Source: Betaproteobacteria bacterium
Lineage (GTDB): Bacteria > Pseudomonadota > Gammaproteobacteria > Burkholderiales > SG8-41
Assembly (NCBI GenBank): GCA_016202615.1
Contig: JACQOI010000286.1
Span: 1 to 33,593 of the forward strand
Direction of reading: 5' to 3'
DNA: 33,593 bases
In this document: positions 2,591-25,285 of the stretch, one piece after another
Numbering within the stretch: position 1 is the first letter of the stretch
Layout: each line of letters starts with the position of its first letter
Notes under the pieces: model-generated
What the model was told of the DNA's origin: nothing
The model's input: only the letters and a program-made list of their open reading frames with translations
Database searches by the model: none
Translations under genes and position numbers: made by a program

Positions 2591-3370
2591 CTATCTGCTC
2601 CTGCTGCGGAAGGCCTTGAGCTTTTCGCGAAAATCGTCCGTGTCGTACAGCACTGCCATGTGCGAAGACACCATGTCGAGGTGCGTTTCGAGAGAAGTGT
2701 CCAGGCTCTGGTAGAGCGCGCGCTTGGTCAGGCGGATGGCCTGCTGCGGCTGGCGGGCAATGCTTCGTGCCAGTTCGCGCGCTTGCGCGAAAAGCTCGGC
2801 ATCTGGAACTACGCGATTGACGAGGCCCATGCGCAGCGCTTCTTGGGCGTCTATCAGACGGCCGGTCCAGAGCAGGTCGAAGCTGTTCGCGACGCCTATC
2901 AGCCGCGGCAGCAGGTAAGTGCCGCCATCTCCCGACATGACGCCCATATGTATATAGCTTTCGGCGAACGTGGCCGATTCGGCGGCAAGGCGCATGTCGC
3001 AGAACAGCGCCATGTCGAGCCCTGCTCCGCGCGCCGTGCCGTTGAGAACAGCGATCACCGGCTTTTCCATGCGCGCCATCGCCATGGGAATGCGATGCAC
3101 GCCGCGCCACAGGTAGTCCTTGCGGCTCACATTGTCGGATACGGCCAGTTCCTCCATTTCGCCAGCATCGCCCCCGGCACAAAAAGCGCGGCCTGCGCCG
3201 GTAATCAGAACAACCCTGGTGGCCGGATCGGCGTCGGCAAGCTGCAATGCCTCGGTCCACTCGGCAATCATCTGACGGTTGAATGCGTTCAGCCGGTCCG
3301 GCCGATTGAGCGTGATGAGGGTGACGCCATCGTCATCGGTGTCCATCTTGATGCTTTGATACTCTCCCAT
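2591..3370 (-). CDS. enoyl-CoA hydratase/isomerase family protein
   Basis: This is a 259-residue crotonase, a typical length. The family signatures appear in order: ITLNRPDRLNAFN near residue 18, GAGRAFCAGGDAGEM near 58 (first oxyanion-hole strand), NGTARGAGLDMALFCDMRLA near 108 (second oxyanion-hole glycines) and GVMSGDGGTYLLPRLIG near 142. The last has Asp where hydratases of the PxAG(G/A) type vary, so the reaction could be hydration, isomerisation or C-C cleavage. The ATG at 3370 follows AAGGGGAAG. It lies downstream of the acyl-CoA dehydrogenase genes and could act on the enoyl-CoA they make. The 363-base gap on its 5' side holds a possible promoter and a gene remnant. Confidence 0.93.
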   Translation of the reverse strand: MGEYQSIKMDTDDDGVTLITLNRPDRLNAFNRQMIAEWTEALQLADADPATRVVLITGAGRAFCAGGDAGEMEELAVSDNVSRKDYLWRGVHRIPMAMARMEKPVIAVLNGTARGAGLDMALFCDMRLAAESATFAESYIHMGVMSGDGGTYLLPRLIGVANSFDLLWTGRLIDAQEALRMGLVNRVVPDAELFAQARELARSIARQPQQAIRLTKRALYQSLDTSLETHLDMVSSHMAVLYDTDDFREKLKAFRSRSR

Positions 3371-3733: not shown

Positions 3734-4957
3734 TCACAATGCGCTTTTATTGCGAGGCACACCTTTGGAAAGTTCGAGTTTTGCGATCGTCTCCATGTGC
3801 ACTTCATCGGGACCATCTGCGAACCGCAGCGAGCGCGCAAGCGAGTAGGCAGCCGCCAAAAAGAAGTCACCCGATACCCCTGCGCCGCCATGTGCCTGAA
3901 TAGCGCGATCGATCACTCGACAGGCCATGCGCGGCGCAACCACTTTGATCATGGCTATTTCGGTGCGCGCGGCTTTGTTGCCTGCTTCGTCCATTTTTGC
4001 GGCGGCGTGCAAAGTCAATAACCGGGCCTGATCGATTTCCATTCTGCTCATGGCGATCTGCTGCCGCATTCCGCCGTGGTCGGCGAGCGCTCTGCCGAAG
4101 GCGACACGGGAACGCGCCCGCGCGCACATTGCCTCGAGTGCTCGCTCGGACAAGCCGATCAGACGCATGCAGTGGTGGATGCGCCCCGGTCCGAGCCGAC
4201 CCTGCGCAATCTCGAAACCGCGGCCTTCCCCCAGCAGCATGTTTTCAACCGGCACACGCACGTTGTCAAAAACCACTTCAGCGTGACCGTGGGGGGCATC
4301 GTCATACCCGAACACCGTCAGCGGCCGGATGACGCGAAGACCGGGGGTGTCAAGCGGAACCAAGACCATGGATTGCTGCTTGTGCGGCGCCGCGGTGGGG
4401 TCGGTCTTGCCCATGACGATGGCTATCTTGCAGCGCCGGTCCGGCGCACCGGAGGCCCACCATTTGCGACCGTTGATGAGGTAATCGTTTCCCTCGCGCG
4501 TGATGCTGCAGGCAATGTTGGTTGCATCCGAAGAAGCGACATCAGGCTCGGTCATCGCAAAGCACGAGCGAATCTCGCCTGCCAGCAGCGGCTTTAGCCA
4601 CTGTTCCTTTTGTGCCGGAGAGCCGTATCGGACCAGCACTTCCATGTTGCCCGTATCAGGCGCCGAGCAGTTGAAGACCTCGGCCGCGAAAGCAACGCGA
4701 CCCATTGCCTCGCAGAAGGGCGCATATTCGCGGTTGGTGAGTCCCAACCCGTATTCGCTTTCCGGCAGAAACAGATTCCACAGTCCCGCCGCCTTAGCCT
4801 TGGACTTGAGATCGTCGAGTAGGGGCGGTGGATGCCAGCGATCCCGTGCTGCGGCGTGCTGTGCTGCATAAAGCGCCTCGCTGGGCACGACCTCCTCGGC
4901 CATAAAGTGGTCAAACTTCTGTTGCAACTCCATCACTCGCGGGGAAAGATTGTTCAT
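3734..4957 (-). CDS. acyl-CoA dehydrogenase, ACAD10/ACAD11-like
   Basis: This is a 407-residue FAD-dependent acyl-CoA dehydrogenase. The FAD/substrate strand [14 protein letters not shown] is near residues 134-147, [12 protein letters not shown] near 160, the dimer-interface motif [12 protein letters not shown] near 353, and the C-terminal ADGPDEVH near 380-387. The 'DGPDEVH' ending and the WWxSGA segment are typical of the ACAD10/11 branch. ATG 4957 fits the family N-terminus. It lies 12 bases after the larger dehydrogenase, so the two are surely co-transcribed. ACAD11-type proteins in animals are fused to an APH-type kinase, and in Pseudomonas levulinate catabolism LvaC works with the kinase LvaA. 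Here a separate APH kinase gene lies about 2.8 kb upstream in the same operon. The substrate is inferred only. Confidence 0.93.
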
Positions 4958-4969
4958 GACCGTCCTTTG

Positions 4970-6793
4970 TTAGAACCACGTGTCTTGCATCGTCAAGCAA
5001 GTATCATCGAGACCGGCGACGAGCTTCGCGCAATGCTCCACCCGAGGTAATTCATGGCGGAAGAAAAACCGTGCCGTGTGGAGTTTGCCCAGGTAAAAGT
5101 CGCGCAGTCCGGGTGCGCCATTCTGAATTCGTGTCGCGGCCGCTGTCGCCTGCCGCAGCCACATCCACGCAATCACCACATGCCCGAACAGATCCAAATA
5201 CGAGGTGGCATTGCTCAAAGGCAGCGCATCGCCGAGCCGAGCGCGAGCTGCGGCCACAGTGGCCGTAGTGTCCTGGAGAAGGGCAAGGGCCCGATCGAGC
5301 TGTGCCGCGTGAGCGGCGACCGCGGACAAGGCGTTTGCCGCCTCGATGTCCACGCGCATCGTTGTTGCGACCGTGCGAACGGCCTGACCGTCATTCATGC
5401 TCGCCTTGCGGCCAAGCAGATCGATCGCCTGGATACCATTGGTGCCTTCGTGGATCGGGTTGAGGCGGTTGTCTCGATAATACTGCTCGACCGGAAAATC
5501 GCGTGTATAGCCATAGCCGCCAAGCACTTGTATGGCATTCGAGTTGGCGCGTAAGCACCATTCGGACGACCAGGCTTTCATGATGGGCGTCAGGACGTCG
5601 AGAAGCGCGCCCGCGCGTTCTCTCGCCGAAGTCTCTTCCACCGTTTTCTGCTCGTCCAGCAGCCGGGCGCAATAGAGGCCTAGCGCCAGCGCTCCCTCGG
5701 CGTAGGCTTTCTGCTCGAGCAGCAGACGGCGCACATCGGCATGCTTGATAATCATCACCGGAGGCGCACTAGGATCCTTGGCTTGCGGCAGTCGACCTTG
5801 TGGTCGCTGGCGAGCGTAGTCGAGCGAAACGCGAAAACCGGCCAGCCCTAGTGCCGCGGCGCTCATCCCAACCACGATGCGAGCCTCGTTCATCATATGG
5901 AACATGTAGGCGAGACCACGGTGGGGCTCGCCGACCAGTTCGCCAATGCAATCACCGCGTTCCCCGAAGTTCAATGCCGTGTTGATCGTGCCGCGGTAAC
6001 CCATCTTGTGATTGAGGCCGCCGAGTACGACGTCATTCAGCTCTCCTGGCCCGCCGTCGGGTCGCAGCCGCCGACGCGTGACCAGAAAGAGCGAAATCCC
6101 CTTGACCCCGGGTGGAGCGCCATCAGTACGGGCCAACACCAGATGCACAATATTTTCCGACAACTCGTGTTCGCCGCCGGAAATCCACATTTTGCTTCCA
6201 GTGATGCGATAACGGGAACCACCAAGCGGCGTCGCGCGGGTGCGGATATCGGCGAGTGAGGACCCTGCCTGTGGCTCTGACAGACACATCGTGCCGAGAA
6301 AACGCCCCGACAGCATCGGTCGCATGTATCGCTGTTTCTGCTCCGCAGATCCAAAGGCGTCGAGCAAGTTGGCAGCGGCGATGGTCAGGAAGCAATAGGC
6401 AAATGTGGCGACATTGGCAGCGTGAAAGTGCGCGTAGCAGGCCTGCGCAACCACCCAGGGCAGCTGCATTCCCCCGGCCGCGTAGCCGTGATGCGCCGCC
6501 AACAATCCGCTGCTCGCAAAATCATTGATCGCGGCGGCAATTTCCGGAATCAGCCGCACCCGACCGTCGACGACCCGGGGTTCCTCGAGGTCGGACTTGC
6601 GGTGGTGCGGCCGGAACCGTTCCTCGGCGAGCTTGCGCGCCATTTCCAGGGCCGAATCGAAAGTGGTCCTGTCGTGATCGGCGAACCACGCTCGCCGCGT
6701 CAAAGTTTCAACATCGAGCACGTCGTAGAGCTGGAACGACAGTTCTCGTGCGTCGATCAGGCAGGATGGGTTGTTCACGTCGAGTGCAATCAA
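4970..6793 (-). CDS. acyl-CoA dehydrogenase, long form with C-terminal extension (DmdC/FadE-like)
   Basis: The 607-residue length and domain order match the long acyl-CoA dehydrogenases related to DmdC: an N-terminal extension, the ACAD core and a C-terminal helical domain. Landmarks are MCLSEPQAGSSLADI (FAD site, near residue 178), YRITGSKMWISGGEH, and GGYGYTRDFPVEQYYRDNR followed by HEGTNGIQAIDLLGRK, whose Glu fits the catalytic base of this branch. The start shown is a TTG that overlaps the SDR stop as TTGA, indicating translational coupling. A GTG five codons later is an alternative. It would introduce the alpha,beta double bond in an acyl-CoA that the shorter dehydrogenase downstream may not accept. 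Confidence 0.92.
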   Translation of the reverse strand: MIALDVNNPSCLIDARELSFQLYDVLDVETLTRRAWFADHDRTTFDSALEMARKLAEERFRPHHRKSDLEEPRVVDGRVRLIPEIAAAINDFASSGLLAAHHGYAAGGMQLPWVVAQACYAHFHAANVATFAYCFLTIAAANLLDAFGSAEQKQRYMRPMLSGRFLGTMCLSEPQAGSSLADIRTRATPLGGSRYRITGSKMWISGGEHELSENIVHLVLARTDGAPPGVKGISLFLVTRRRLRPDGGPGELNDVVLGGLNHKMGYRGTINTALNFGERGDCIGELVGEPHRGLAYMFHMMNEARIVVGMSAAALGLAGFRVSLDYARQRPQGRLPQAKDPSAPPVMIIKHADVRRLLLEQKAYAEGALALGLYCARLLDEQKTVEETSARERAGALLDVLTPIMKAWSSEWCLRANSNAIQVLGGYGYTRDFPVEQYYRDNRLNPIHEGTNGIQAIDLLGRKASMNDGQAVRTVATTMRVDIEAANALSAVAAHAAQLDRALALLQDTTATVAAARARLGDALPLSNATSYLDLFGHVVIAWMWLRQATAAATRIQNGAPGLRDFYLGKLHTARFFFRHELPRVEHCAKLVAGLDDTCLTMQDTWF

Positions 6794-7554
6794 GCAAGCC
6801 CGAAACCACCGTCTACACGGATCGTGCTTCCATTCATGTAGGCCGACGCATTGGAGGCAAGCAACAGAAGCGGCCCTTCGAGATCGGCGGGCTTACCCAG
6901 CCGCCGCATCGAAATGCGCTTCAACATGGCGCAGCCGGCATCGGTTTCGAAAAAGTCGCGGTTCATATCGGTGGCTACGTAACCAGGCGCCAACGCATTG
7001 ACGCGGATCCCATAGCGGGCCCATTCGAGCGCCATGCCCCTCGTCATATGCAAGACGCCCGCTTTCGAGGCTAAATAGGGCATCACGTTTCCAATCACGA
7101 CCTCTCCTATCGCCGAAGCAATGTTGACGATGCGCCCCGTGCGACGGGAACGCATTCGCCGCGCTGTCTCGGTCGCGACGAGGAACATGCCTTTCAAATT
7201 GGTGTCGACGACCGCATCCCAGTCGGCTTCTGTCTGCTCCAATGCCGGTTTCGTAATGGCGATCCCGGCATTGTTGACGAGAACGTCGAGCGCGCCGAGT
7301 CCATCCTCTGCCTGTTCGATCGCTGTGCGCACGCTCACCGCTTTGGTAACGTCCATCACCACCGGAAAGGCGTGGCGCCCGAGAGCGACTATGTCGGCAG
7401 CAACCTCCCGTAAGGCGTCGAGCGACCGGGCAGTCACGGCAACATCTGCCCCGTACCTCGCTAGGGTCAGCGCGAAATGGCGACCGAGGCCGCGCGATGC
7501 GCCGGTCACCAAGGCACGATCACCCGACAAATCGAATGGCGTTCCGGGCATCAT
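6790..7554 (-). CDS. SDR family oxidoreductase (classical, FabG-like)
   Basis: This is a 254-residue classical short-chain dehydrogenase. It has TGASRGLG near residues 17-24 for NAD(P), NNAG near 93, the catalytic Ser in NIASAIG, YLASK (YxxxK) near 160, and the C-terminal IRVDGG. Two ATG codons open the gene (MMPGTP), and a GGGAGAGAG stretch just upstream favours the first. It probably oxidises a hydroxyacyl-CoA or a secondary alcohol for the neighbouring beta-oxidation enzymes. Its stop overlaps the start of the long acyl-CoA dehydrogenase. A hairpin repeat separates it from the kinase gene upstream. Confidence 0.93.
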   Translation of the reverse strand: MMPGTPFDLSGDRALVTGASRGLGRHFALTLARYGADVAVTARSLDALREVAADIVALGRHAFPVVMDVTKAVSVRTAIEQAEDGLGALDVLVNNAGIAITKPALEQTEADWDAVVDTNLKGMFLVATETARRMRSRRTGRIVNIASAIGEVVIGNVMPYLASKAGVLHMTRGMALEWARYGIRVNALAPGYVATDMNRDFFETDAGCAMLKRISMRRLGKPADLEGPLLLLASNASAYMNGSTIRVDGGFGLA

Positions 7555-7567
7555 GCGTCTCTCTCCC

Positions 7568-7638
7568 TAGCAGCCTGTCGGACTTAGCATTCGACAGGCT
7601 GCTAAGGAGTTTGTCCGACCCAAGTCCGACAAACTCCT
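7568..7638. repeat. double-hairpin repeat element (copy A)
   Basis: Two inverted repeats lie back to back. TAGCAGCCTGTCG (7568-7580) pairs perfectly with 7592-7604 around an 11-base loop. AGGAGTTTGTC (7605-7615) pairs with 7628-7638, with three more pairs inside after a C-C mismatch. The two stems are themselves related (AG[GC]AGnnTGTC). A shortened copy occurs at 14656-14692. The layout resembles terminal inverted repeats of a non-autonomous transposable element, but no transposase is visible. It lies in the 164-base gap between the SDR and the kinase. The remaining gap (7639-7718) shows no gene. Confidence 0.75.
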
Positions 7639-7718
7639 GGTGCAGCTAGTCACTCTCCGGATCCTGAAAGCAATGTGGCTTCGTAGACCATGACACGGCG
7701 GATGCCTGCGCGATGGCA

Positions 7719-8786
7719 TCATTTCCTCCCACCCGGCGATGTATCCAGAGCGGCCAAGCCCGCTTCGGCGCAGAGCCCCGCCAAGTTCCCGTGCTCGAGC
7801 GCGTCGGGGGAGCTCGCATTGCCGTCCAGTGCACGGTGCAGGATCCCCTGAAGAATGGCCGCGAGCCGGAACAATGCAAACGCGATGTAGAACCCCCACG
7901 GTGCCAAGGGGCGGATCCCGGTTCGCGAAAAGTAGGCTTCGATATAGTCCTCCTCTGAAGGGATACCGGTCTCCTCAAGGGATATGTCCGCGAAACCCCC
8001 GAACGCTCTCCGCGGCAGATGGTAAGCAAAGCAGTTGTACGCAAGATCCGCGAGCGGATGGCCAACGGTGGAAAGCTCCCAGTCGAGAATCGCCAGTACC
8101 ACCGGCTCGGTCTCGTGAAAAATAAGGTTCTCGAGTCTGAAGTCGCCATGCACGATGCTGGAACGATCGTCTGCTGGCACTAACTGCGGCAGATGACGCA
8201 TGAGTTCATCCATGGCCGCGATCGTCCCGGTTTCGCTGTCGCGGTATTGTCGGGTCCACCGCTCGATCTGGCGAGCGAAGTAGTTGCCCGGCCGCCCGTA
8301 ATCGGCGAGCCCGCAGGCTGCATAGTCGACCCCATGCAGCTTGGCGAGCGAGGCGTTCATGGCATCATAAAGTGCGCCACGCTCGGCCCGAGGGAGCGAC
8401 TCCAGCAGCGGATCCTTGAACACGCGTCCGCTGACATGCTCCATCAGATAAAACAGTGTTCCAATCACGTTCAGATCGCTACAAAAATGGATCATCTTCG
8501 GCACTGGTACATCGGTTGTGCCCAATGCCTGCATAACACGGAACTCGCGATCCAAGGCGTGCGCCGACGGCAACAGGCGTCCTTCAGGTTGCTTGCGGAG
8601 TACCACTTTCCGCTTATCCGCCGCCAACAAATATGTTGGATTCGATTGGCCGCCAACGAACCGACGCAGTTCCAGATCACACCAGCGCCCGGGAAGGTGC
8701 GCGTCGAGATACCTGGCAAGAGGCTCGGGACTGAAGCCTGTTTCAGCCGGTCCTTTCACGACCGCAACGGAAGACAGTGTGCTCAT
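7719..8786 (-). CDS. APH-family phosphotransferase (ACAD10/11 kinase-domain-like)
   Basis: This is a 355-residue protein of the aminoglycoside phosphotransferase/choline kinase fold. It has a glycine-containing nucleotide loop region (FVGGQSNPTYLL, near residue 43), VVLRKQP with the ATP-binding Lys, the catalytic loop IVHGDFRLENLIF (213-220 HGDxxxxN) and the metal site ILDWELSTVGHPLADL near 233. The track ORF extends to 8876, but ATG 8786 begins the homology and overlaps the stop of an SDR remnant as ATGA. In acyl-CoA operons such proteins are not antibiotic-resistance enzymes. Homologues fused to ACAD in animals, and LvaA in Pseudomonas, phosphorylate 4-hydroxyacyl-CoA. That role is inferred here from context. 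No LvaB-like small partner is seen. Confidence 0.92.
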   Translation of the reverse strand: MSTLSSVAVVKGPAETGFSPEPLARYLDAHLPGRWCDLELRRFVGGQSNPTYLLAADKRKVVLRKQPEGRLLPSAHALDREFRVMQALGTTDVPVPKMIHFCSDLNVIGTLFYLMEHVSGRVFKDPLLESLPRAERGALYDAMNASLAKLHGVDYAACGLADYGRPGNYFARQIERWTRQYRDSETGTIAAMDELMRHLPQLVPADDRSSIVHGDFRLENLIFHETEPVVLAILDWELSTVGHPLADLAYNCFAYHLPRRAFGGFADISLEETGIPSEEDYIEAYFSRTGIRPLAPWGFYIAFALFRLAAILQGILHRALDGNASSPDALEHGNLAGLCAEAGLAALDTSPGGRK

Positions 8787-8870
8787 TCCGCGGTGCAGCC
8801 GCCGTCGATGTAGACCGTATGGCCGGAGATCGCACTCATTGCGGTACCGATCAGTGAGAAGTCGAGCACA
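8783..8870 (-). pseudogene. C-terminal tail of a lost SDR gene
   Basis: The minus strand reads IGTAMSAISGHTVYIDGGCTAE followed by TGA. The segment 'S.ISG.T.YIDGG' is the standard C-terminal strand of classical SDRs, yet nothing upstream in this frame belongs to one. The complete SDR at 8914-9750 already has its own end (LTVDGGQMLSWM). The stop overlaps the kinase start (ATGA), so the tail preserves an old coupled SDR-kinase junction. A recombination between SDR genes is the simplest explanation. Confidence 0.65.
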
Positions 8871-8913
8871 ATGCACTCATTCGCTGCAGTGGGAATGACG
8901 GTCGGTGTGACCG

Positions 8914-9750
8914 TTACATCCAACTCAGCATTTGACCGCCGTCGACGGTGAGCACAGCCCCCGTCATATAGCGGCCGGCATTTGAAGCAAGCAGCAAAAA
9001 GGCGCCCTCCAGGTCGTCGGGGCGGCCGAATCGGCGCAGCGGCGTGCGCTTGAGCATCGTATCGTGGAAGCCCTTGTCGCCGAGGGTGGTCTGCATGTCG
9101 GTTTCGATGTTGCCTGGACACAGCACGTTTACGCGGATGTTCTTGCCGGCCAGCTCGAGCGCCATAACTTGGCTGAACTGTATCAGCCCAGCCTTTGATG
9201 CGGCATAACTTGCCATGAAGGCGCCGGCGCGCAGGCCTGCCGTGGAGGCCACGTTGACAATAACGCCGCGCTTGAGCACAAGCATGCGTCGCGCCGCCTC
9301 TTGCGCGACGCGGAAGGCACCCTTCAGGTTCGTGTCGATGACGCGGTCGAGATCGTCGTCGCCGTGTGCGACAAAGGACTCGGCGTGCAGCACGCCGGCG
9401 TTGTTGATGAGCACGTCGACCGGCGCATCGAGTTGCCGTTCGGCTGCATCGAAGGCCGGCGCGATGGTATGCGGGTCGGTGACATCGAGATACACCGCTG
9501 CGGCGCGCCGGCCCGTCGCCTTCAGCGCCGCCGCTTCGGCTTCGATGCGTTCGCTGCGCCGCGCCGCGAGCGCCACGGCTGCGCCGGCTGCTGCGAAGGT
9601 CTGTGCGACGTGCAACCCTATGCCGCTGGAGGCGCCAGATACCAGAACCGTCCTGCCGTGCAAGCTGAACATCGTCTCGAACATCTTTGTACTTTCTTGA
9701 ATCAGTGCGTCCGTGTTGTCCGAACCGACGGCGTGCTCGAGCATAGCCAT
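8914..9750 (-). CDS. SDR family oxidoreductase
   Basis: This is a classical short-chain dehydrogenase. It has SGASSGIG (about residues 38-45 from the start chosen), NNAG, NVASTAG with the catalytic Ser, YAASK (YxxxK) and LTVDGG near the C-terminus. The start at 9750 gives 278 residues and overlaps the DUF35 stop by one base (TGATG), implying coupling. An ATG at 9684 (MFETMFSLHGRTVLVSG), preceded by AAGAAAG, gives a more usual length and is a real alternative. It probably handles a hydroxyacyl/oxoacyl-CoA or an alcohol made by this pathway. Confidence 0.92.
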   Translation of the reverse strand: MAMLEHAVGSDNTDALIQESTKMFETMFSLHGRTVLVSGASSGIGLHVAQTFAAAGAAVALAARRSERIEAEAAALKATGRRAAAVYLDVTDPHTIAPAFDAAERQLDAPVDVLINNAGVLHAESFVAHGDDDLDRVIDTNLKGAFRVAQEAARRMLVLKRGVIVNVASTAGLRAGAFMASYAASKAGLIQFSQVMALELAGKNIRVNVLCPGNIETDMQTTLGDKGFHDTMLKRTPLRRFGRPDDLEGAFLLLASNAGRYMTGAVLTVDGGQMLSWM

Positions 9751-10181
9751 CACGCGCTTTTCCCGTGGAGTTGAGCAACTGGCTGAAACCGATGCAAGGA
9801 AATCGTGTCGTTGATATCGACAAACGATACTTCTACTTCCATTCCTGCGCCGATCGCTTCGGGAGAACATCCAACGATGTTGGTCGGCATGCGCACCCCA
9901 TCGTCGAGCTCGACGAGTGCCACCACGTAAGGCACTTCCTTGACGTATACGTCTGACGGGACCGGATGTCGCACCACAATCCAGCTGTAGATTGTGCCGT
10001 GGCCGCTGCTGGTGATCCAATCCAGTGCCGAGGACCGGCAATGTTTGCAGATAGGCCCGGGAGGAAACTGCGCCTTGCCGCAGCTACCGCATTTCTGCAG
10101 GCGCAGCCGATGCTCACGGCAGCCTTCCCAGAACGGCCTGGAGAGGTGATCCAGCACGGGGAGCGGTCGCTGCATCGTCAT
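9750..10181 (-). CDS. DUF35 zinc-ribbon/OB-fold protein
   Basis: This 143-residue protein has the DUF35 architecture: an N-terminal helical arm (PFWEGCREHRLRLQKC), a four-cysteine zinc ribbon CGSCGKAQFPPGPICKHC near residues 31-49, then an OB fold (GTIYSWIVVRHPV ... PYVVALVELDDGVRMPTNIVG). Such proteins bind CoA thioesters and nearly always partner a thiolase-like enzyme encoded next door. Here that is the gene ending one base upstream at 10183. In the Ltp2-ChsH2 system the DUF35 partner is needed for retro-aldol activity. ATG 10181 is the natural start, with MQRPL two codons later as an alternative. Confidence 0.93.
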   Translation of the reverse strand: MTMQRPLPVLDHLSRPFWEGCREHRLRLQKCGSCGKAQFPPGPICKHCRSSALDWITSSGHGTIYSWIVVRHPVPSDVYVKEVPYVVALVELDDGVRMPTNIVGCSPEAIGAGMEVEVSFVDINDTISLHRFQPVAQLHGKSA

Positions 10182-10182
10182 T

Positions 10183-11340
10183 TCAGTTCCTCAGGATCAT
10201 GGCACTACCGCAGGTCATGGCGCCGGCAGTGGTCAGGGCGATCCGCGCGCCCTCGATCTGGCGCGCGCCACTGTGTCCGCGAAGTTGCTCAACCGCTTCG
10301 ATGACGTGGTTGAAGCCGTGAATATAGGCTTCAGAAAGCAACCCGCCGTGGGTATTGGTGGGCAGTGGGCCCGTTCGTCTTAGCCCGCCACCCTGCGCGA
10401 AAGCACCGGCCTCTCCCGGTTTGCAGAAGCCCAGGCCCTCCAACACCATGATGACAGTGTAAGTAAAGCAGTCGTAGATTTCGGCAACATCCACATCTTC
10501 GGGGCCGATACCTGCACTCTTCCAGAGATCGCCGGCGATGTATTTGCTGAAGTTCTCCGACAGGTCGGGCCATCGGATCGCGTCGAACAGGTCTTCTCCC
10601 TGGTGAATGCCGCCACCGTACGCGCCGCCCATGATGTACACCGGGCGGTGGCGCATATCGCGGGCGCGTTCGGCCGAAGTGACCAGCGCCGCGCAAGCGC
10701 CGTCGGATTCCAGGCAGATGTCATACAGGCCGAAGGGGTCGACGATCTTGCGCGCGCCGAGGTACTCGTCGATGGTCAGCGGCGTGCGTATCATTGCCCG
10801 CTCGTTTAGCACCGCGTTCTCGCGGAAGCTCACGGCGACTGAACCGAGCTGCTCTTTCGTGGTGCCGTACTTCACCATGTGCGCGCGGCACCACATGGCC
10901 ATGGCTTGCGGATAGGTAATCCAGCCAAAGGGTGCGGTGTATTGCGTGACGTTGTAGGCCGACAGATCCCGGCTTCCACCCAAGCGGAATCCAGATCGGC
11001 CGTTCATCGCGCGAAAGCACAACACGTTCTTCGCCAGACCTGCCTCAATCGCGGCAGTTGCGGCCAGGGTGATCAGGTTGGCGGCGTTGCCGCCGGAATC
11101 GAAATCGACCACGTACTGCGGATCGGGCAGACCCATGGCTGTGGCGACTGCCATTCCCGGTACCGAATCGCCGAAGTTAAAACTGATCAACCCGTCGACT
11201 TCGTCCGGGTTCACTCCAGCATCCTCGCACGCTTTGAGACAGGCCTCGGTCGCCAGTTCGAGCACCGTAACGCCTGATGCTTTGGAGAATCTGGTGAAGC
11301 CGATGCCGCCTATGGCATATCTATCGCGCAAATTCCACAT
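10183..11340 (-). CDS. thiolase-like (SCP2/Ltp2-type) acyl-CoA lyase
   Basis: This is a 385-residue protein of the thiolase fold. The nucleophile-loop region reads VVDFDSGGNAANLITLA near residues 77-93. It has no cysteine where true thiolases carry the catalytic Cys, as in the non-thiolytic SCP2/Ltp2 branch. IYDCFTYTVIMVLEGLGFC and NTHGGLLSEAYIHGFNHVIEA are typical of that branch, and the NTHGG His is conserved. With the adjacent DUF35 protein it probably forms a complex that cleaves a C-C bond by retro-aldol chemistry, or condenses two CoA esters. A thiolytic role is less likely. It lies 21 bases downstream of the operon's first hydratase. Confidence 0.9.
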   Translation of the reverse strand: MWNLRDRYAIGGIGFTRFSKASGVTVLELATEACLKACEDAGVNPDEVDGLISFNFGDSVPGMAVATAMGLPDPQYVVDFDSGGNAANLITLAATAAIEAGLAKNVLCFRAMNGRSGFRLGGSRDLSAYNVTQYTAPFGWITYPQAMAMWCRAHMVKYGTTKEQLGSVAVSFRENAVLNERAMIRTPLTIDEYLGARKIVDPFGLYDICLESDGACAALVTSAERARDMRHRPVYIMGGAYGGGIHQGEDLFDAIRWPDLSENFSKYIAGDLWKSAGIGPEDVDVAEIYDCFTYTVIMVLEGLGFCKPGEAGAFAQGGGLRRTGPLPTNTHGGLLSEAYIHGFNHVIEAVEQLRGHSGARQIEGARIALTTAGAMTCGSAMILRN

Positions 11341-11361: not shown

Positions 11362-12156
11362 TCAGTGACCCTGGAAGCGCGGCTTGCGCTTCTCCTGGAA
11401 AGCCATGAGGCCTTCGGTCGCGTCTGCCGAGTTGGTGGCGTAGCGATGAACGTATTCGAGCTCCATGCGCAGTCCAGTGGTGAGGTCTTTGCGAAGTCCC
11501 TGGTTGGCGAGGTACTTCATGCCTGCAAGCCCCTGCGGGCTTAGAGACGAAAGGCGCTCCAGGAACTGTTTGGTGAAGCCTTCCAGCTGAACGTCGGGCA
11601 CAAGCTTTGATACAAGACCGATGCGTTCGGCTTCCGTGGCATCAACGATCTCGCCCGTGAGCATGAGGTAGCGTGCGCGCATTGGACCGACAGTGCGAGG
11701 CAGCCGCTGCGAGCCACCGGCACCCGGCAACTGACCGAAATTCACATGCGCATCGCCGATCTTGGCCGAGGTGGCCGCGATGACCACGTCGCAGGCCAAA
11801 AGCAACTCCAGGCCTCCGGCCACGCAATAGCCCTCGACCACTGCCACGTAAATCTTGCGCGACGCCTCGATTAACTCGAGCAGCCGGTGAAAGTCCTCCA
11901 GGAATGCCTGAAAGTCGTCAGGCCGTCGGTACAAGTCGACATAGTCCTTGAGATCGCCGCCCGCCGAAAAATTCTTGCCCGCACCGCTTACCACCACAAC
12001 CTGTGCAACTGCATCGTCTTCGACGCGCTTCACGATATCGACTAATTGCCGGACGGTTGACCAATCGAGCGGATTTCGCTTCTGCGGCCGATTCAACGTG
12101 ATACGAACGACCTGTTGGCCGAATTCTGCGATCACCGAGTGTTCTGCCATGCGCAT
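11362..12156 (-). CDS. enoyl-CoA hydratase/isomerase, first gene of the operon
   Basis: This crotonase of about 264 residues shows RITLNRPQKRNPLDW, GAGKNFSAGGDLKDY (oxyanion hole), EGYCVAGGLELLLACDVVIA and FGQLPGAGGSQRLPRTVG in order. The track start at 12201 is a TTG that would lie almost on the predicted transcription start. The ATG at 12156 (MRMAEHSV) or 12150 gives a normal family length and a leader of about 50 bases, so I use 12156, although no strong ribosome site is visible. It is the first gene after the regulator and is predicted to be transcribed from the promoter at 12211-12238. Confidence 0.92.
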   Translation of the reverse strand: MRMAEHSVIAEFGQQVVRITLNRPQKRNPLDWSTVRQLVDIVKRVEDDAVAQVVVVSGAGKNFSAGGDLKDYVDLYRRPDDFQAFLEDFHRLLELIEASRKIYVAVVEGYCVAGGLELLLACDVVIAATSAKIGDAHVNFGQLPGAGGSQRLPRTVGPMRARYLMLTGEIVDATEAERIGLVSKLVPDVQLEGFTKQFLERLSSLSPQGLAGMKYLANQGLRKDLTTGLRMELEYVHRYATNSADATEGLMAFQEKRKPRFQGH

Positions 12157-12207
12157 AAGTTTCAAAGGGGCTGTTTGTATTTGGACGAACGTCGCGGCCA
12201 ATGTCCT

Positions 12208-12224
12208 TACATTATTTTAATGTA
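12208..12224. promoter_or_regulatory. AT-rich inverted repeat over the operon -10 region
   Basis: TACATTA and TAATGTA form perfect 7-base arms around TTT. The repeat covers the predicted -10 of the operon promoter and could be a second regulator site or a melting element. No particular protein is suggested by the sequence. Confidence 0.45.
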
Positions 12225-12238
12225 CCGTAGTCCGACAA
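12211..12238 (-). promoter_or_regulatory. predicted promoter of the acyl-CoA operon
   Basis: On the minus strand TTGTCG (12238-12233) and AATAAT (12216-12211) are 16 bases apart. The -10 matches five of six consensus positions and the -35 matches four. The -35 lies inside the FadR-like operator at 12228-12238, so bound repressor would block RNA polymerase. Transcription would start near 12204 and run through the catabolic cluster. Confidence 0.5.
12228..12238. promoter_or_regulatory. FadR-subfamily GntR operator candidate (operon)
   Basis: TAGTCCGACAA fits the FadR-subfamily consensus TNGTNNNACNA at every fixed position. It shares GTCCGACAA with the site upstream of the regulator at 13144-13156. 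Its position over the operon -35 fits repression by the neighbouring GntR protein. Confidence 0.55.
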
Positions 12239-12304
12239 TCGAATGCAATGATCCGCGGACATTTGCCTGCGCAGGCCGACCTTTCGGGCTCTGTTTCCTA
12301 GTCA

Positions 12305-13039
12305 CTACACAGCGCTGTCCATCGGACGGTTCATGTCGATTCCCGTACGCTCATAGCCGCGCTTCAAGTCGGCCATGTGGCGCTCCATCCAGGCGCGCAC
12401 GCCTGCCTCATCATGTTTGCGCACCAATGCGACGATCCTTTTATGGGCATCGAGAATTCGCTTTTGCGTTTTCAATCGCGTAAGGATTATTTTCCCGGCC
12501 GGGTAGAACAGGAGGCTGATCGGTTCCCTGGCGAGGCTCAGTGCTCGATTGTCGGCGTACTCCGCGAGCAGGTTATGAAATTCGATGTCGAGTGACACCA
12601 CGCTGTCGATATCGTTGAGCCTGGCTTTCATCTCCTTAAGATTGTTTTCGAGCGCGCGGATGCCCCCTTCGTCTATGCGTTGGGCGGCGAATATTGCGGT
12701 AATGGTCTCCAGTGCCGCTGCCGCTTCCGATAACTCGCGGAAGGTGACTTGATGCATCACAAGCGCTCTGGACGCGCGGGAGGCCAGTTCCGTGTAATGC
12801 GGGATCGCAACCTTGAGCCGCTTTCCATCGCGTCTTACTAGTCCCGCATGCTCTAGCCCACGGAGACCCTCCCGTACGGTCGAACGATTGACACCTAGCT
12901 GTGCCGCCAGCTCCGTCTCGGGCGGAAGCCAGTCACCCAGAGAGAGTCGACCGGATCTAATCATCTTTTCCACTGAATCGGAGACCTGTCGGTAAGCAGG
13001 GGCCAGGTCAAGTTTTTCAAAAACAGTTTTAGAAGTCAT
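12305..13039 (-). CDS. GntR family regulator, FadR/FCD subfamily
   Basis: This 244-residue regulator has an N-terminal winged helix (LPPETELAAQLGVNRSTVREGLRGLEHAGLVRR, near residues 38-70) and a C-terminal all-helical FCD effector domain. Potential metal ligands of that domain are visible as Asp151, His155 (DIEFH), His199 (AHKRI) and His221 (MERHM), so the effector is likely a carboxylate or CoA-type metabolite bound at a metal. ATG 13039 starts the HTH domain at the usual distance. The gene lies at the head of the catabolic operon on the same strand, and operator-like sites flank it. The likely role is local repression relieved by a pathway intermediate. Confidence 0.93.
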   Translation of the reverse strand: MTSKTVFEKLDLAPAYRQVSDSVEKMIRSGRLSLGDWLPPETELAAQLGVNRSTVREGLRGLEHAGLVRRDGKRLKVAIPHYTELASRASRALVMHQVTFRELSEAAAALETITAIFAAQRIDEGGIRALENNLKEMKARLNDIDSVVSLDIEFHNLLAEYADNRALSLAREPISLLFYPAGKIILTRLKTQKRILDAHKRIVALVRKHDEAGVRAWMERHMADLKRGYERTGIDMNRPMDSAV

Positions 13040-13132
13040 GATTTCAATTCATTAAATTGGAAAACATTTCGACACTTCGGCGCCCCTGCCAGGTTGTAAC
13101 TACGTGTGCGCTGGTCGCGCCGCCTGGCGACA

Positions 13133-13161
13133 AGTATAATCGGATTGTCCGACAATATAAA
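13133..13161 (-). promoter_or_regulatory. predicted promoter of the GntR regulator
   Basis: On the minus strand TTTATA (13161-13156) and TATACT (13138-13133) are separated by 17 bases, with five of six -10 matches. The palindromic operator at 13144-13156 fills the spacer, a classical autorepression layout. On the plus strand a perfect TATAAT lies at 13135-13140 without a good -35. It could belong to a divergent promoter for the tctC gene at 13507. Confidence 0.5.
13144..13156. promoter_or_regulatory. FadR-subfamily GntR operator candidate (regulator)
   Basis: ATTGTCCGACAAT is a perfect palindrome with 6-base arms around a central C. Its core TTGTCCGACAA fits TNGTNNNACNA fully. It lies in the spacer of the predicted regulator promoter. 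The remaining gap to the tctC start (13162-13506) shows no recognisable gene; the track ORFs there have no family likeness. Confidence 0.6.
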
Positions 13162-13506
13162 GCGTGTCACGCCACAATTGCGCCCCGGCACACGTAATTG
13201 CGTTCCAAGTCTCCTCAACTCTCATCTCGTACCTCCTTGGGGGCGCTATGACGACCGGACAGATTACGAACTCGCAACACCCGGCTTGACGGAATTTCAG
13301 TCTGGCAGTAGCATTGTTAGACATTCAGACCATATGAAGGCCAGGGTACTTCGTGCAAAGGCTCTGCCCTTTGACGAAGTGTCGATTTTTGCGAAAGTGC
13401 TTACGGATGGTTTGGATGGCTTCACTGCTGCGGAGGAAGCGTTTTCCGCGTGGCTCGATACGGAGGCGCAACACATTTTTCGCATACACCTGAACAGGAG
13501 GATTCA

Positions 13507-14478
13507 ATGCGTGTAAAGAAATGGGGCAGGAGCGCCATTTTATTGGTGTGGCTCGCTCTTGTTTTCGGCGTGGCATCCACATGGGGAGCGAGTTTCCCGG
13601 AGCGCCCCGTACGTTTCCTCGTTGGCTTCAACCCTGGAGGAGGAACAGATCAGGTGGCTCGGATAATTGCCCCGAAATTGTCGGAAAGATGGGCCCAATC
13701 TGTCATTGTCGAGAATCGGCCGGGTGCTGATGGCGATATTGCCTTAGGAATCTTGATGAGCTCGGAGCCGGATGGATATACTCTTGTAATGGCTACGAAT
13801 GCTTTTACGATTACGCCCAATCTACGCAAGCTCAATTACGACCCGATAAAAAGCTTTTCGCCTATCATTTTGGTAGCGTCGGTACCTGGTGTCCTAGCGG
13901 TCCGAGGATCCCTCCCGGTTTCGTCCCTCAAAGAATTGATCGCATTGGCTAAGTCCAAGCCTGGGCAGTTGAACTTCGCTTCCAGTGGAACGGGCACGAC
14001 CCCATATTTGCAGATGGCGCTTCTCATGAAGCTGACCGGAATCGATATGGTCCATATACCCTACAAGGGCAATGTGGGTCCTCCACTGCTGAGCGGCGAG
14101 GTTGATATGGGTTTCTCCGGGGTGCCGGCTCTTCTCGCGCTGGTGAAGGCAGGCAGGATCAAAGCGCTTGCGGTTTCAACCACAGAGCGGGCAGCGCAGT
14201 TACCGGAGGTGCCTACAGTCGCCGAAGCAGCCAATCTCCCGGGCTACGAGGCTTTTACCTGGTATGGTGTATTGGGGCGAGTCGGCACTCCCAAAGAAAT
14301 CATCAATAAGTTGAATGCTGATATATCTGAAGTGATGCGTGACCCGACTGCTCGTCAACGCATATCCAACTCGGGCTTTCTGATTGTAGCCGGCAGTCCC
14401 GAAAAATTCAGCGCTACCATAAAGAGCGACGTTGCGAGGTGGTCAGCATTGCTAAAAACGATCGACATTGTCAAGTAG
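13507..14478 (+). CDS. TctC/Bug tripartite tricarboxylate transporter receptor
   Basis: This is a 323-residue periplasmic solute-binding protein. The N-terminal signal peptide has positive charges (MRVKKWGR), a hydrophobic core (SAILLVWLALVFGVA) and probable cleavage before ASFPERP. The family marks follow: PVRFLVGFNPGGGTDQVAR, VIVENRPGADG, PDGYTL, MVHIPYKGN and EVPTVAEAANLPGYEAFTWYG. ATG 13507 follows CAGGAGGATTCA; the track start at 13450 is upstream of it. The ligand is normally a carboxylate held by the two lobes. It heads a plus-strand group with MmgE/PrpD and a hydratase. By eye it is more AT-rich than the minus-strand cluster. Confidence 0.94.
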   Translation: MRVKKWGRSAILLVWLALVFGVASTWGASFPERPVRFLVGFNPGGGTDQVARIIAPKLSERWAQSVIVENRPGADGDIALGILMSSEPDGYTLVMATNAFTITPNLRKLNYDPIKSFSPIILVASVPGVLAVRGSLPVSSLKELIALAKSKPGQLNFASSGTGTTPYLQMALLMKLTGIDMVHIPYKGNVGPPLLSGEVDMGFSGVPALLALVKAGRIKALAVSTTERAAQLPEVPTVAEAANLPGYEAFTWYGVLGRVGTPKEIINKLNADISEVMRDPTARQRISNSGFLIVAGSPEKFSATIKSDVARWSALLKTIDIVK

Positions 14479-14655: not shown

Positions 14656-14692
14656 TAGCAGCCTGTCGAATGCTTAGTCCGACAAACTCCTA
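14656..14692. repeat. short copy B of the hairpin repeat, with operator-like core
   Basis: TAGCAGCCTGTCGAATGCTTAG is the reverse complement of the centre and right arm of copy A's first hairpin with one mismatch. TCCGACAAACTCCT equals the right end of copy A. The element folds as one imperfect hairpin and ends 11 bases before the MmgE/PrpD start. It contains TAGTCCGACAA (14675-14685), identical to the operator candidate at 12228-12238, so it may either carry a regulator site or mimic one by chance. The rest of the 14479-14703 gap shows only a weak CCAGGGT/ACCCTGG inverted repeat at 14520-14548. Confidence 0.7.
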
Positions 14693-14703
14693 GGGACAAT
14701 CGA

Positions 14704-16068
14704 ATGGATAAGACGACCGAAAGACTGGTCGATTACGCCATGGAGGCGAGGCACGAGGCACTATCGGCCGAAACGAGACACGAATGCAAGCGCCGTCTCG
14801 TCGACACCTATGCATGTGCCATGGGCGCGTACGATGATTCCGTATGCCGGATCGCTCGGGAGATTGCAGAGCAATACTCCGGCAAGTCGGGTGCCAGCGT
14901 GTGGGGCAGCGGCATCAAGACTGTTCCCGAGATGGCCGCGTTCGCGAATGGGGTAATGGTGCGTTTCATGGATATCAGCGACACCTATCAAGGGAAAGGA
15001 CGTGGGCATCCGAGCGATGTTATCTCCGGGATACTCGCGATCGGCGAAGCCGTGCATGCAGACGGACCGTCCGTCATCAACGCAATTACGGTTGCCTATG
15101 ACGTCTACTGCAGCTTCGAGGATGCTATCGACATTAACAGCAAAGGATGGGACCACGCTGTGTATGGCGTGGTCGCCGGTGCGCTTGGAGCCGGGAAGGT
15201 CCTCGGCCTGTCGTGCGAACAAATGGCCCACGCCGTAGCTCTCGCGGTGGCGCCCAACATGGCGCTGATAGTGAGCCGGCATGGGGATCTTTCGAACTGG
15301 AAAGGATGTGCTGGCGCCAACGCCTCGCGCAACTCTGTGTTTGCGGCCATGCTCGCGCACCGCGGCTTGACCGGGCCGGGCGCCGCTTTCGAGGGGAAAG
15401 GCGGTTTGTGGGAGGCCCTCGGTGGAGGTTTTGCTTGGCCTCTGCCGGACCCGAACGCTCCACGGATGATTACGCGGACGCATCTCAAGAGTCTGCCGAT
15501 CTGTTATCACGGACAGTCAGCGGTGCTCGCCGCGTTCGAATTGCGTCGGCGTGTGCCCATTGACGACATCGGCGAAATCGAGGTTGACACCTATGGTGTC
15601 GCCATCCAGATGATGGCGGGAGATCCTAACCGCTGGGCGCCTACCACACATGAAACCGCCGACCATAGCCTGCCCTATGTGGTGTCGAGGGCGTTGCTCG
15701 ATGGCAAAATCGAGTCGGCATCATTTACACACGAGCGTTTAACCGATCCTACAGTCTTGAAGATGATGCGCAAGGTGAAGGTTCGCGAAAGCAGGGCTCT
15801 CTCCGAACGGTATCCGCAAGGCGCGCCCGCAAGACTAACCGTCCGCCTCAACTCTGGCGAGGAGTTAGTGCATGAAATCGAGCACCCGCTAGGACACGCG
15901 GGGAATCCGATGAACGACGCGCAGTTAGAGGAGAAGTTTCGCCGCATGTTTGGTGCTGTGGGCAGGTCGGATCGATGTGAGCAGGCACTGCGGGTGTTAT
16001 GGAACTTTGACAAGGCCGCAGATGTGAGTCTCGACGTGTTCGAGCCGTTGGCTGCGGTTCATCGATAG
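14704..16068 (+). CDS. MmgE/PrpD family protein
   Basis: This 454-residue protein belongs to the MmgE/PrpD family (2-methylcitrate dehydratase and relatives such as immune-responsive gene 1). The all-helical N-terminal domain is visible as LSAETRHECKRRLVDTYACAMGAY, then ANGVMVRFMDISDTY, GHPSDVISGILAIGEA and AVYGVVAGALGAGKVLGLS. SLPICYHGQSAVLAAFELR and the mixed alpha/beta lid domain (EIEVDTYGVA) follow. The family dehydrates or isomerises branched di- and tricarboxylic acids, which fits its place behind a tctC carboxylate receptor. True PrpD is unlikely, because no prpB/prpC genes are near. ATG 14704 follows TAGGGA. Confidence 0.92.
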   Translation: MDKTTERLVDYAMEARHEALSAETRHECKRRLVDTYACAMGAYDDSVCRIAREIAEQYSGKSGASVWGSGIKTVPEMAAFANGVMVRFMDISDTYQGKGRGHPSDVISGILAIGEAVHADGPSVINAITVAYDVYCSFEDAIDINSKGWDHAVYGVVAGALGAGKVLGLSCEQMAHAVALAVAPNMALIVSRHGDLSNWKGCAGANASRNSVFAAMLAHRGLTGPGAAFEGKGGLWEALGGGFAWPLPDPNAPRMITRTHLKSLPICYHGQSAVLAAFELRRRVPIDDIGEIEVDTYGVAIQMMAGDPNRWAPTTHETADHSLPYVVSRALLDGKIESASFTHERLTDPTVLKMMRKVKVRESRALSERYPQGAPARLTVRLNSGEELVHEIEHPLGHAGNPMNDAQLEEKFRRMFGAVGRSDRCEQALRVLWNFDKAADVSLDVFEPLAAVHR

Positions 16069-20944: not shown

Positions 20945-21901
20945 ATGAACATATTGCGAGCAATTGTTGTTTGCCTGCTGCTCGGCGGCTCGATTGGATC
21001 GGCGCAGCAGTTCCCGGCTAAGTCCATACGTTTTATTGTGCCGTTTCCTGCCGGTGGTGGAAGCGACGCTCTCGCGCGCCTGGTTGGCCAGAAGCTGGCG
21101 GAGGCGTGGGGGCAGCAGGTGATTGTCGAAAACCGGCCCGGGGCACAAGGCAGCATTGGCACCGCGCTTGCAGCCAAGGCAGCCCCCGATGGCTATACGA
21201 TACTGCTCGGCGAGGTCGGCGCGCTATCTGTGAATCCACATCTTTATACAAACGTGGGGTTCAACCCGTACAAAGATTTCGCGCCCATCACACAGGCTAC
21301 ACAACATCCGTCTGTGTTCATCGCTCATCCCTCGGTTCCGGCCAAATCGATCAAGGAACTCATCGCAGTCGCAAAAGCCAAACCGGGCAAGCTGACGTTT
21401 GGCACGAGTGGTGCCGTGGCGCAGACCGCTGGCGGGCTGTTCCAGATTATGGCTGGAATCAACCTTACCCACGTACCCTACAAAGGCAGCAACCCGGCGG
21501 TCATCGACGTGATGGGCGGGCACGTCGATTTGATAATCTCCGGGCCGTTCTCGCCGCTGCCGTTCATCCGTAGCGGCCGTTTGAGAGCCCTTGCCGTAAC
21601 CACGCGCACGCGCGTGGACATTCTCCCTGACGTGCCGACGGTGATCGAAGCCGGTATTCCCGAGTACGAAATGGCTAATTGGTATGGCGTGCTCGCGCCC
21701 GCGGGCACCCCAGGGGAAATCGTGTCCCGGTTCAATACGGAACTGGTCCGTATTCTGAAGCTTCCTGAGGTCAACGAGCGGTCGTCACGGGAGGGATATC
21801 AGCCCGTGGGCAGCTCGTCCGAGGAGTTTGCGGCGTTCATGAGAAGCGAAATCGCAAAATGGGGTAAGGCGGTGCAGGTCACGGGAGTTAAAGCCAACTG
21901 A
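20945..21901 (+). CDS. TctC/Bug solute-binding receptor
   Basis: This 318-residue periplasmic binding protein follows AAGGAGGATTTGAG at ideal spacing. The short signal peptide MNILRAIVVCLLLGGSIGSAQQ precedes FPAKSIRFIVPFPAGGGSDALARLVGQKL. VIVENRPGAQGSIG, APDGYTILLGE, LTHVPYKGSNPAVIDVMGGHVDLI and PTVIEAGIPEYEMANWYGVLAP are family marks. It is the first of two tctC genes in tandem, 61 bases apart and probably co-transcribed, and neither has an adjacent permease gene. The ligand is unknown; the gene context gives no enzyme partner on this strand. Confidence 0.94.
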   Translation: MNILRAIVVCLLLGGSIGSAQQFPAKSIRFIVPFPAGGGSDALARLVGQKLAEAWGQQVIVENRPGAQGSIGTALAAKAAPDGYTILLGEVGALSVNPHLYTNVGFNPYKDFAPITQATQHPSVFIAHPSVPAKSIKELIAVAKAKPGKLTFGTSGAVAQTAGGLFQIMAGINLTHVPYKGSNPAVIDVMGGHVDLIISGPFSPLPFIRSGRLRALAVTTRTRVDILPDVPTVIEAGIPEYEMANWYGVLAPAGTPGEIVSRFNTELVRILKLPEVNERSSREGYQPVGSSSEEFAAFMRSEIAKWGKAVQVTGVKAN

Positions 21902-21962: not shown

Positions 21963-22940
21963 ATGACACTGCGATATCGAACCGCTCTTGTGATTACTAT
22001 CCTGACGACGCTCGCGGCGACACCGCCTGCCCTTGCACAGCAGTATCCGAACAAGCCGATTCGGCTGCTCATCCCCTCGCCGCCCGGTGGCGGGACCGAT
22101 GTTTTGGGTCGTATCCTGAGCGATGGCCTCACCAAGCTATGGGGGCAGCCGGTAGTAGTCGATAATCGCGGCGGAGCAAGCGGAAGGATTGCTGCAGCGG
22201 TGGCCGCCAGGTCAACGCCGGACGGTCATACCTTATTATTTACGTACGGTGGTGTCCTGACCACAGGTTTGCCGCTGTTTCGCAAACTCCCGTACCACCC
22301 CATCAAGGATTTTGCGCCCGTCGCGATGATTGCCCACGTGCCGGGCGTTCTCGTCGCACATCCCTCTTTCCCGGCAAAGACGGTAGCGGAACTCATCCAG
22401 CTCGCCAAGTCCAAGCCCGGAGCGCTGAATCACGGTGCATCCAGCATTGGTTCCAGCAGCCATCTCAACATGGAGCTGTTCAAGCAGATGGCAGGAATCG
22501 ATATGTTGCAGGTTTCGTATCCCGGTGACGGACCCGCTCTCATAGCACTTTTGGGCGGCCACGTGCCGTTCGCGTTCAATAACGTCGTGGCGGCTGCGCC
22601 GCATATTCAGTCTGGTAAGTTGAGAGTTATGGCGGTAGCTACCGCTCAGCGCGTGCCTAACCTGCCGCAGGTCCCGACGATCGCCGAAAGCGGGCTGCCC
22701 GGCTACGAGGGTCTTCTTTTCTATGCGCTCGTAGCGCCCGCAAGGACGCCGCCGGCAATCGTAAACAGGTTGAATGATGCCATGAGGAAAATAAAGCAAG
22801 ACGCGGACGTAAAGCAGCAATTCTCACGCTTAGGAGCGATTTCAGTAGACATGACTCCCGAAGAGTTAGGTGCTTTCCTCGAGCGGGAGCTCGAGAAATG
22901 GACGAAAGTCATACAAGCCGGGGGAATCCAGGCTGACTGA
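21963..22940 (+). CDS. TctC/Bug solute-binding receptor
   Basis: This 325-residue receptor has a clear signal peptide (LVITILTTLAATPPALAQQ). PIRLLIPSPPGGGTDVLGRILSDGL, VVVDNRGGASGRIAAAVA, TPDGHTLLFTYGG and PTIAESGLPGYEGLLFYALVAP are visible. The usual PYKGxGPAL loop reads VSYPGDGPALIALLGGHVPFAF, so the pocket lip differs from the upstream paralogue and the ligand probably does too. AGCGGAGGAATACATC precedes the ATG. It is the second gene of a tctC tandem and is directly followed by a fragment of another tctC. Confidence 0.94.
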   Translation: MTLRYRTALVITILTTLAATPPALAQQYPNKPIRLLIPSPPGGGTDVLGRILSDGLTKLWGQPVVVDNRGGASGRIAAAVAARSTPDGHTLLFTYGGVLTTGLPLFRKLPYHPIKDFAPVAMIAHVPGVLVAHPSFPAKTVAELIQLAKSKPGALNHGASSIGSSSHLNMELFKQMAGIDMLQVSYPGDGPALIALLGGHVPFAFNNVVAAAPHIQSGKLRVMAVATAQRVPNLPQVPTIAESGLPGYEGLLFYALVAPARTPPAIVNRLNDAMRKIKQDADVKQQFSRLGAISVDMTPEELGAFLERELEKWTKVIQAGGIQAD

Positions 22941-25089: not shown

Positions 25090-25285
25090 TCACTCAGATT
25101 TTAGATGAGGCAATTCGAAGATTTGCATTATCCCTGAGCGTTGCGTAGTATTAATTTCAGGCGCCGATGAGGAGGTCTTTGGAAGCTCCATCCTGCCAGC
25201 GATAGCCGCCCATCTCTACCCCATTCGGCGGTTAATCCCGCTCAGGCGGGGAGTTTTGCAAGAAGCTAAAAAGAAAGGAGATCCT

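Follow-up and report, generated by a model that had tools for sequence, protein, structure and literature searches.

Regulators of the FadR subfamily recognize palindromic operators in which a TKGT box and an ACMA box are separated by a 3-nt gap (Suvorova et al. 2015, PMC4494728). Atu1419 (VanR) of Agrobacterium fabrum is an FCD repressor that acts on its own gene and on neighbouring catabolic genes via identical palindromes. One of these operators lies between the -10 and -35 boxes of its own promoter and the others lie on -10 boxes; the operator is the 10-bp ATGTATACAT, and a tetramer of the protein loops 190 bp of DNA (PMC7797058). In both FadR and Atu1419, Arg45 reads a G of the operator (PMC7797058). 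Among catabolic enzymes, kinase-dehydrogenase pairs of bacteria and mammals convert 4-hydroxyacyl-CoA to enoyl-CoA via a phosphorylated intermediate (PMC12440821).

Here, we analyse a stretch of 33,593 nucleotides from a Betaproteobacteria bacterium (the window), in which two palindromes, termed site A and site B, flank a gene for a GntR/FCD regulator next to an acyl-CoA gene cluster. We consider it probable, at about 0.8, that this regulator is a TTGTCSGACAA-binding repressor that controls its own gene and the acyl-CoA operon and is released by an inducer. The locus resembles that of Atu1419 in that a putative FCD repressor has matching palindromes at its own and at neighbouring catabolic genes (PMC7797058). 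Unlike the 10-bp ATGTATACAT operators joined in a 190-bp loop by the Atu1419 tetramer, the sites in the window are 917 bp apart.

The regulator gene (12305-13039, minus strand) encodes a protein of 244 amino acids, a putative repressor by its domains, translation, and alignment. Its N-terminal part is a GntR winged helix (PF00392, E=3.2e-17, 62 bits vs a cut-off of 27) and its C-terminal part is an FCD domain (PF07729, E=2.4e-19, 70 bits vs a cut-off of 24), which bears out the preliminary description, where an FCD regulator had been placed between the two sites. The domain carries the ligand pattern of metal-type FCD proteins: D151, H199, and H221 are invariant and H155 is nearly invariant in 16 orthologs. 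These four residues, which we take to be metal-binding, align with the Asp and the three His of LldR from Corynebacterium glutamicum (CGL2915, PDB 2di3). LldR has both the GntR and the FCD domain and is the best sequence match among solved structures (about 27% identical), the nearest of which are LldR-like and other FCD proteins. It regulates lactate genes, not an acyl-CoA operon. An AlphaFold model of the regulator (pLDDT 79, pTM 0.60) was used for fold class only. In the recognition helix, VNRSTVREG, R52 and R56 are invariant in 16 orthologs, and R52 would be, by position, the counterpart of Arg45 in FadR and Atu1419.

With E. coli FadR the regulator shares the winged helix, the operator class, and an acyl-CoA gene neighbourhood. 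It differs in its FCD effector domain and in its scores against the FadR equivalog models, which reach 29-31 bits vs cut-offs of 189-249 (NF003444, 31.3 bits, cut-off 189; TIGR02812, 29.1 bits, cut-off 249). The domain and the scores together exclude it as the fatty-acyl-CoA FadR. The label FadR-type, applied earlier, suits the operator, whose consensus has TKGT and ACMA boxes 3 nt apart (PMC4494728), but not the protein, if the fatty-acyl-CoA FadR is meant.

Site A (TTGTCCGACAA, 13145-13155) is a perfect palindrome located 105 bp upstream of the regulator ATG (13039) and conserved in orthologous loci. Site B (TAGTCCGACAA, 12228-12238) is palindromic at 10 of 11 positions and lies after the stop of the regulator gene (12305) and before the in-frame ATG of the enoyl-CoA hydratase gene (12150). 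Neither putative operator has a strand. Both were found again where the preliminary description had put them; both fit TNGTNNNACNA and share the core GTCCGACAA, as it had said. They agree with FadR-subfamily operators (PMC4494728) in the TKGT-N3-ACMA palindrome, the 3-nt centre, and the adjoining regulator gene, site A fitting in full. They depart from the general consensus of the subfamily in that the centre is fixed here as C[C/G]G and site B has TAGT for TKGT on one side.

The loose pattern TNGTNNNACNA occurs four times in the window vs 3.7 expected, a chance-level frequency; a match to it, therefore, proves nothing by itself. Shuffles often give the two intergenic regions a 9-mer in common (98 of 300), but TNGTN3ACNA in both regions with 9 nt in common arises in 0 of 5000 shuffles. 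Across the 4.23-Mb genome, TWGTCSGACWA is present 11 times, five of them copies of a dispersed repeat (see below), and the exact TTGTCSGACAA is present three times. One of the three is site A; the second falls within a coding frame that resembles nadB (C344), and the third is close to the end of a contig, where no frame was called over it (C305). Site A is the sole exact occurrence clearly within a promoter region. A genome-wide motif scan, which had been proposed as a check, thus recovers site A at the regulator but yields no large regulon, the core being mostly repeat. Since the genome encodes only two FCD proteins, it is reasoned that the regulon is local. Neither TTGTCCGACAA nor TTGTCGGACAA was found as a reported operator in the literature searched.

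Orthologs of the regulator (38-69% identity) are scattered over alpha-, beta-, and gammaproteobacteria, several of them on plasmids. Their hosts are Burkholderiales, Sphingomonas, Sphingopyxis, Paracoccus, Shinella, Aquisalimonas, Bosea, Cupriavidus, a Comamonadaceae bacterium, Rhizorhabdus, Salipiger, and other Pseudomonadota. No close ortholog was found within the regulator's own genus, where the best match is 29%. The scattered occurrence and the plasmid location suggest horizontal transfer of the regulator.

Most orthologous loci examined carry TTGTC[C/G]GACAA, exact or nearly so, either ahead of the regulator gene or where its operon begins. The palindrome is CTGTCGGACAG in the hydratase/regulator divergent region of L071, TTGTTGGACAA in L072, TTGTCCGACAA and CTGTCGGACAA at the operon heads of L073 and L074, GTGTCCGACAA in both L075 and L115, TTGTCTGACAA in L112, and CTGTCCGACAG in L114. 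It is exact in L113 and at the operon head of L136, and it stands at the head of a divergent operon in L111. Each of L104-L107 and L109 has a pair of sites spaced by about 100 bp, and all but one of these ten sites are exact. L110, a syntenic locus of Sphingopyxis macrogoltabida 203N, has two sites between regulator and hydratase (14902 and 14974), which are the equivalent of site B; its regulator is 69% identical, and hydratase, thiolase, OB-fold, kinase, and dehydrogenase genes come after it as they do in the window. A good site was not found at the orthologs L108/L142 and L116.

When a fixed 300-bp window upstream of the regulator is compared with dinucleotide shuffles, p is 0.01 or less at L072, L075, L104-L107, L109, L112, L113, and L115. 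With L104-L109 counted once, this amounts to 6 of about 14 genus-level loci (binomial p ~3e-9), and two further loci give p of 0.02 and 0.07. Operon-head sites beyond this 300-bp span, where the regulator is not the first gene, came to light in a wider search and count for less. The exact TTGTCSGACAA is absent from all 18 of the more distant FCD paralogs (about 27-34% identity), one of which has a 10/11 match, TTGTCTGACAA; the contrast between orthologs and paralogs gives a Fisher p of 0.012, two same-genus loci being counted separately. In unbiased word discovery in the upstream regions, the motif came out on top, though without a clear margin over the shuffled maxima, a limit set by the small number of sequences. 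The earlier proposal that the sites are operators of the intervening FCD regulator is strongly supported by this cross-species conservation, and we regard sites A and B as very likely to be its operators. Two orthologous loci have additional sites. In L137, two exact TTGTCGGACAA (3002 and 3086) immediately precede a kinase-dehydrogenase pair that lies some 6 kb away from the regulator gene. In L110, on a Sphingopyxis plasmid, further operators with well-formed -35/-10 boxes (1847, 6479, and 27137) precede an aldo/keto reductase, a TonB receptor, and an MFS/TonB divergent pair, which suggests a wider regulon in that locus.

The two sites had been described as lying exactly in two promoters. Both promoter pairs exist, but they are weak (9/12 matches each), and a scan finds three such pairs vs 1.2 +/- 1.0 expected. 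The predicted regulator promoter is TTTATA-17-TATACT (13133-13161, minus strand); site A lies in its spacer but, rather than filling it, covers the first 11 of the 17 bases. The predicted operon promoter is TTGTCG-16-AATAAT (12211-12238, minus strand), and its -35 falls within site B, just as described; a faint parallel in L110 reads TTGTCG-16-CATCAT. The preliminary description had overlooked a perfect TATAAT on the plus strand (13135-13140), which ends four bases short of site A. Together with a poor -35 (3/6) this box forms a candidate divergent promoter, TGGTCG-17-TATAAT (13112-13140, plus strand), near the layout of the relatives. Of 20 sites from the relatives, 10 have a TTGAC-like -35 together with a -10 box that ends at most 4 nt from the operator start (shuffles, 0.9 +/- 0.9, maximum 5 in 1000 shuffles). 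The operator there sits over -10/+1, at the transcription start, which is the standard position for a repressor, and not in the spacer or on the -35. The window approaches this layout only at site A on the plus strand; neither site has a strong promoter so arranged, and site B has none.

The shared core is not peculiar to the two sites. GTCCGACAA occurs 257 times vs 28 for its reversed control, and in 188 exact copies vs 0 for the control it continues as GTCCGACAAACTCC, part of a dispersed hairpin repeat. The repeat unit resembles TAGCAGCCTGTCGAATGCTTAGTCCGACAAACTCCTAGG and looks like a REP/REPIN or MITE element. It is about TAGCAGCCTGTCG...TTAGTCCGACAAACTCCTAGG in form, often in inverted pairs, and has window copies at 7572-7640 and 14656-14693. 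Copies number at least 188 in this genome, 96 in a congener, 17-22 in two genera of its family, and 0 in the remaining congeners sampled. An Rfam search at the window copies gave no match, and among 10 matches to Y1 transposase genes in the genome the repeat adjoins none of the 8 loci inspected. A third TAGTCCGACAA in the window (14675), missed earlier, was rejected as an operator, as it is one of these copies. A genome-wide regulon drawn from the 257 cores was likewise rejected, given the repeat and the two FCD proteins. If sites A and B were themselves fragments of the repeat, the copy at 14675 would be the precedent; however, both sites lack the repeat flanks and so are not repeat copies, and the same palindrome stands at orthologs in other classes, beyond the reach of this genome's repeat. 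Such an origin is highly improbable and largely refuted already. That the palindromes arose near the regulator by chance would accord with the ordinary frequency of TNGTNNNACNA in the window, but conservation across genera and absence in the paralogs largely refute this too, and chance is hardly credible as an explanation.

Site A may mainly control the divergent plus-strand genes, the first of which encodes a TctC-type substrate-binding protein (13450-14478, PF03401) and another an MmgE/PrpD family protein (14704-16068, PF03972), with the regulator weakly or indirectly autoregulated and the minus-strand promoter of the preliminary description unused. The perfect TATAAT, close to the conserved layout, would drive these genes, and the 9/12 minus-strand promoter with its poor -35 points the same way. 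The plus-strand -35, however, matches at 3/6, the first plus-strand gene is about 300 bp off, and in L105-L107 and L109 the divergent genes have an operator each of their own, so that sharing is not the rule there. We hold this reading to be rather unlikely, and consider that the switch probably serves the divergent genes as well. Some FCD proteins activate instead of repressing. The overlap of site B with a predicted -35 would suit an activator that recruits polymerase from its operator, and E. coli FadR both represses and activates (PMC4259882); the position of the relatives' operators over -10/+1, usual for repression, speaks against activation, which we judge improbable. The window contains five TctC-type genes in 33 kb (13450-14478, 20945-21901, 21963-22940, 25256-26275, and 32263-33234). 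TctC gene expansion is typical of some Burkholderiales.

Repression thus remains the preferred reading, and the placement of the sites makes it likely that the regulator controls both its own gene and the acyl-CoA operon next to it. The minus-strand cluster begins with the enoyl-CoA hydratase/isomerase (11362-12150, PF00378; the open frame extends to 12201), followed by an SCP2-type (lipid-transfer) thiolase (10183-11340, PF22691, NF005892 similarity) and its ChsH2-type zinc-ribbon/OB-fold partner (9750-10181, PF01796, PF12172). Next are an SDR dehydrogenase (8914-9680, PF13561, PF00106; its start is approximate, as the domain begins at residue 127 of the open frame 8914-10041), an APH-fold kinase (7719-8876), a second SDR dehydrogenase (6790-7554, PF00106), and two acyl-CoA dehydrogenases, one with a C-terminal extension (4970-6793, PF12806, PF00441) and one of the ACAD11 type (3734-4957). 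A further enoyl-CoA hydratase (2591-3370, PF00378) comes after a 363-bp gap, and its membership of the operon is uncertain. The earlier claim of control over the whole acyl-CoA cluster is unproven, because the hairpin repeat (~7572-7640) with a 164-bp gap, and the 363-bp gap before the last gene, divide the minus-strand genes.

The cluster encodes both halves of a split ACAD11. Both enzymes of the ACAD11/LvaA-LvaC route have their counterparts: the kinase is a homologue of the ACAD11 kinase domain (8v3v, E=6e-79), and the dehydrogenase is closest to the ACAD11 dehydrogenase domain (2wbi, E=1.7e-142), with other ACAD families at ~1e-43 at best, apart from the unassigned 4hr3. The operon, therefore, probably degrades 4-hydroxyacyl-CoAs. 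It resembles the lva operon and mammalian ACAD10/11 in its ACAD11-type kinase and dehydrogenase (PMC12440821). It differs in its extra thiolase/OB-fold and SDR genes, and its substrate is predicted from the genes. Relatives of the kinase and dehydrogenase lie near the regulator in L073, L110, L111, L112, L115, L137, and L142, some of the dehydrogenase matches being weaker.

The proposed switch builds on three observations: the two sites exist, they are conserved together with the regulator from genus to genus, and the relatives share a -10/operator layout. The regulator would act as a dimer that grips TTGTCSGACAA palindromes via its winged helices, at site A between its own gene and the divergent genes and at site B ahead of the hydratase operon. 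Without inducer, it would block RNA polymerase at both promoters and thus hold down expression of both its own gene and the acyl-CoA operon; an inducer bound in the FCD domain would take it off the DNA and turn the genes on. The inducer is probably a carboxylic acid or an acyl-CoA related to 4-hydroxyacyl-CoA, since the kinase-dehydrogenase pair recurs by the regulator and operators precede the pair in L137.

Such a switch is a standard mechanism. Newly assigned, and well supported by comparison across loci, is the predicted operator of this FCD regulator, TTGTC[C/G]GACAA, for a group without a reported site in the literature searched. A bolder reading, a long shot in our estimate, is that this lineage, having spread horizontally among alpha-, beta-, and gammaproteobacteria, serves specifically to sense ACAD11-type 4-hydroxyacyl-CoA breakdown and as a rule has TTGTCSGACAA over the transcription start. 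If so, about 190 hairpin repeats, which match 9-10 of the 11 operator bases, could serve as decoys in this genome. The operator assignment links the FCD group to operons with the bacterial split ACAD11, and the motif may be used for regulon prediction in other genomes.
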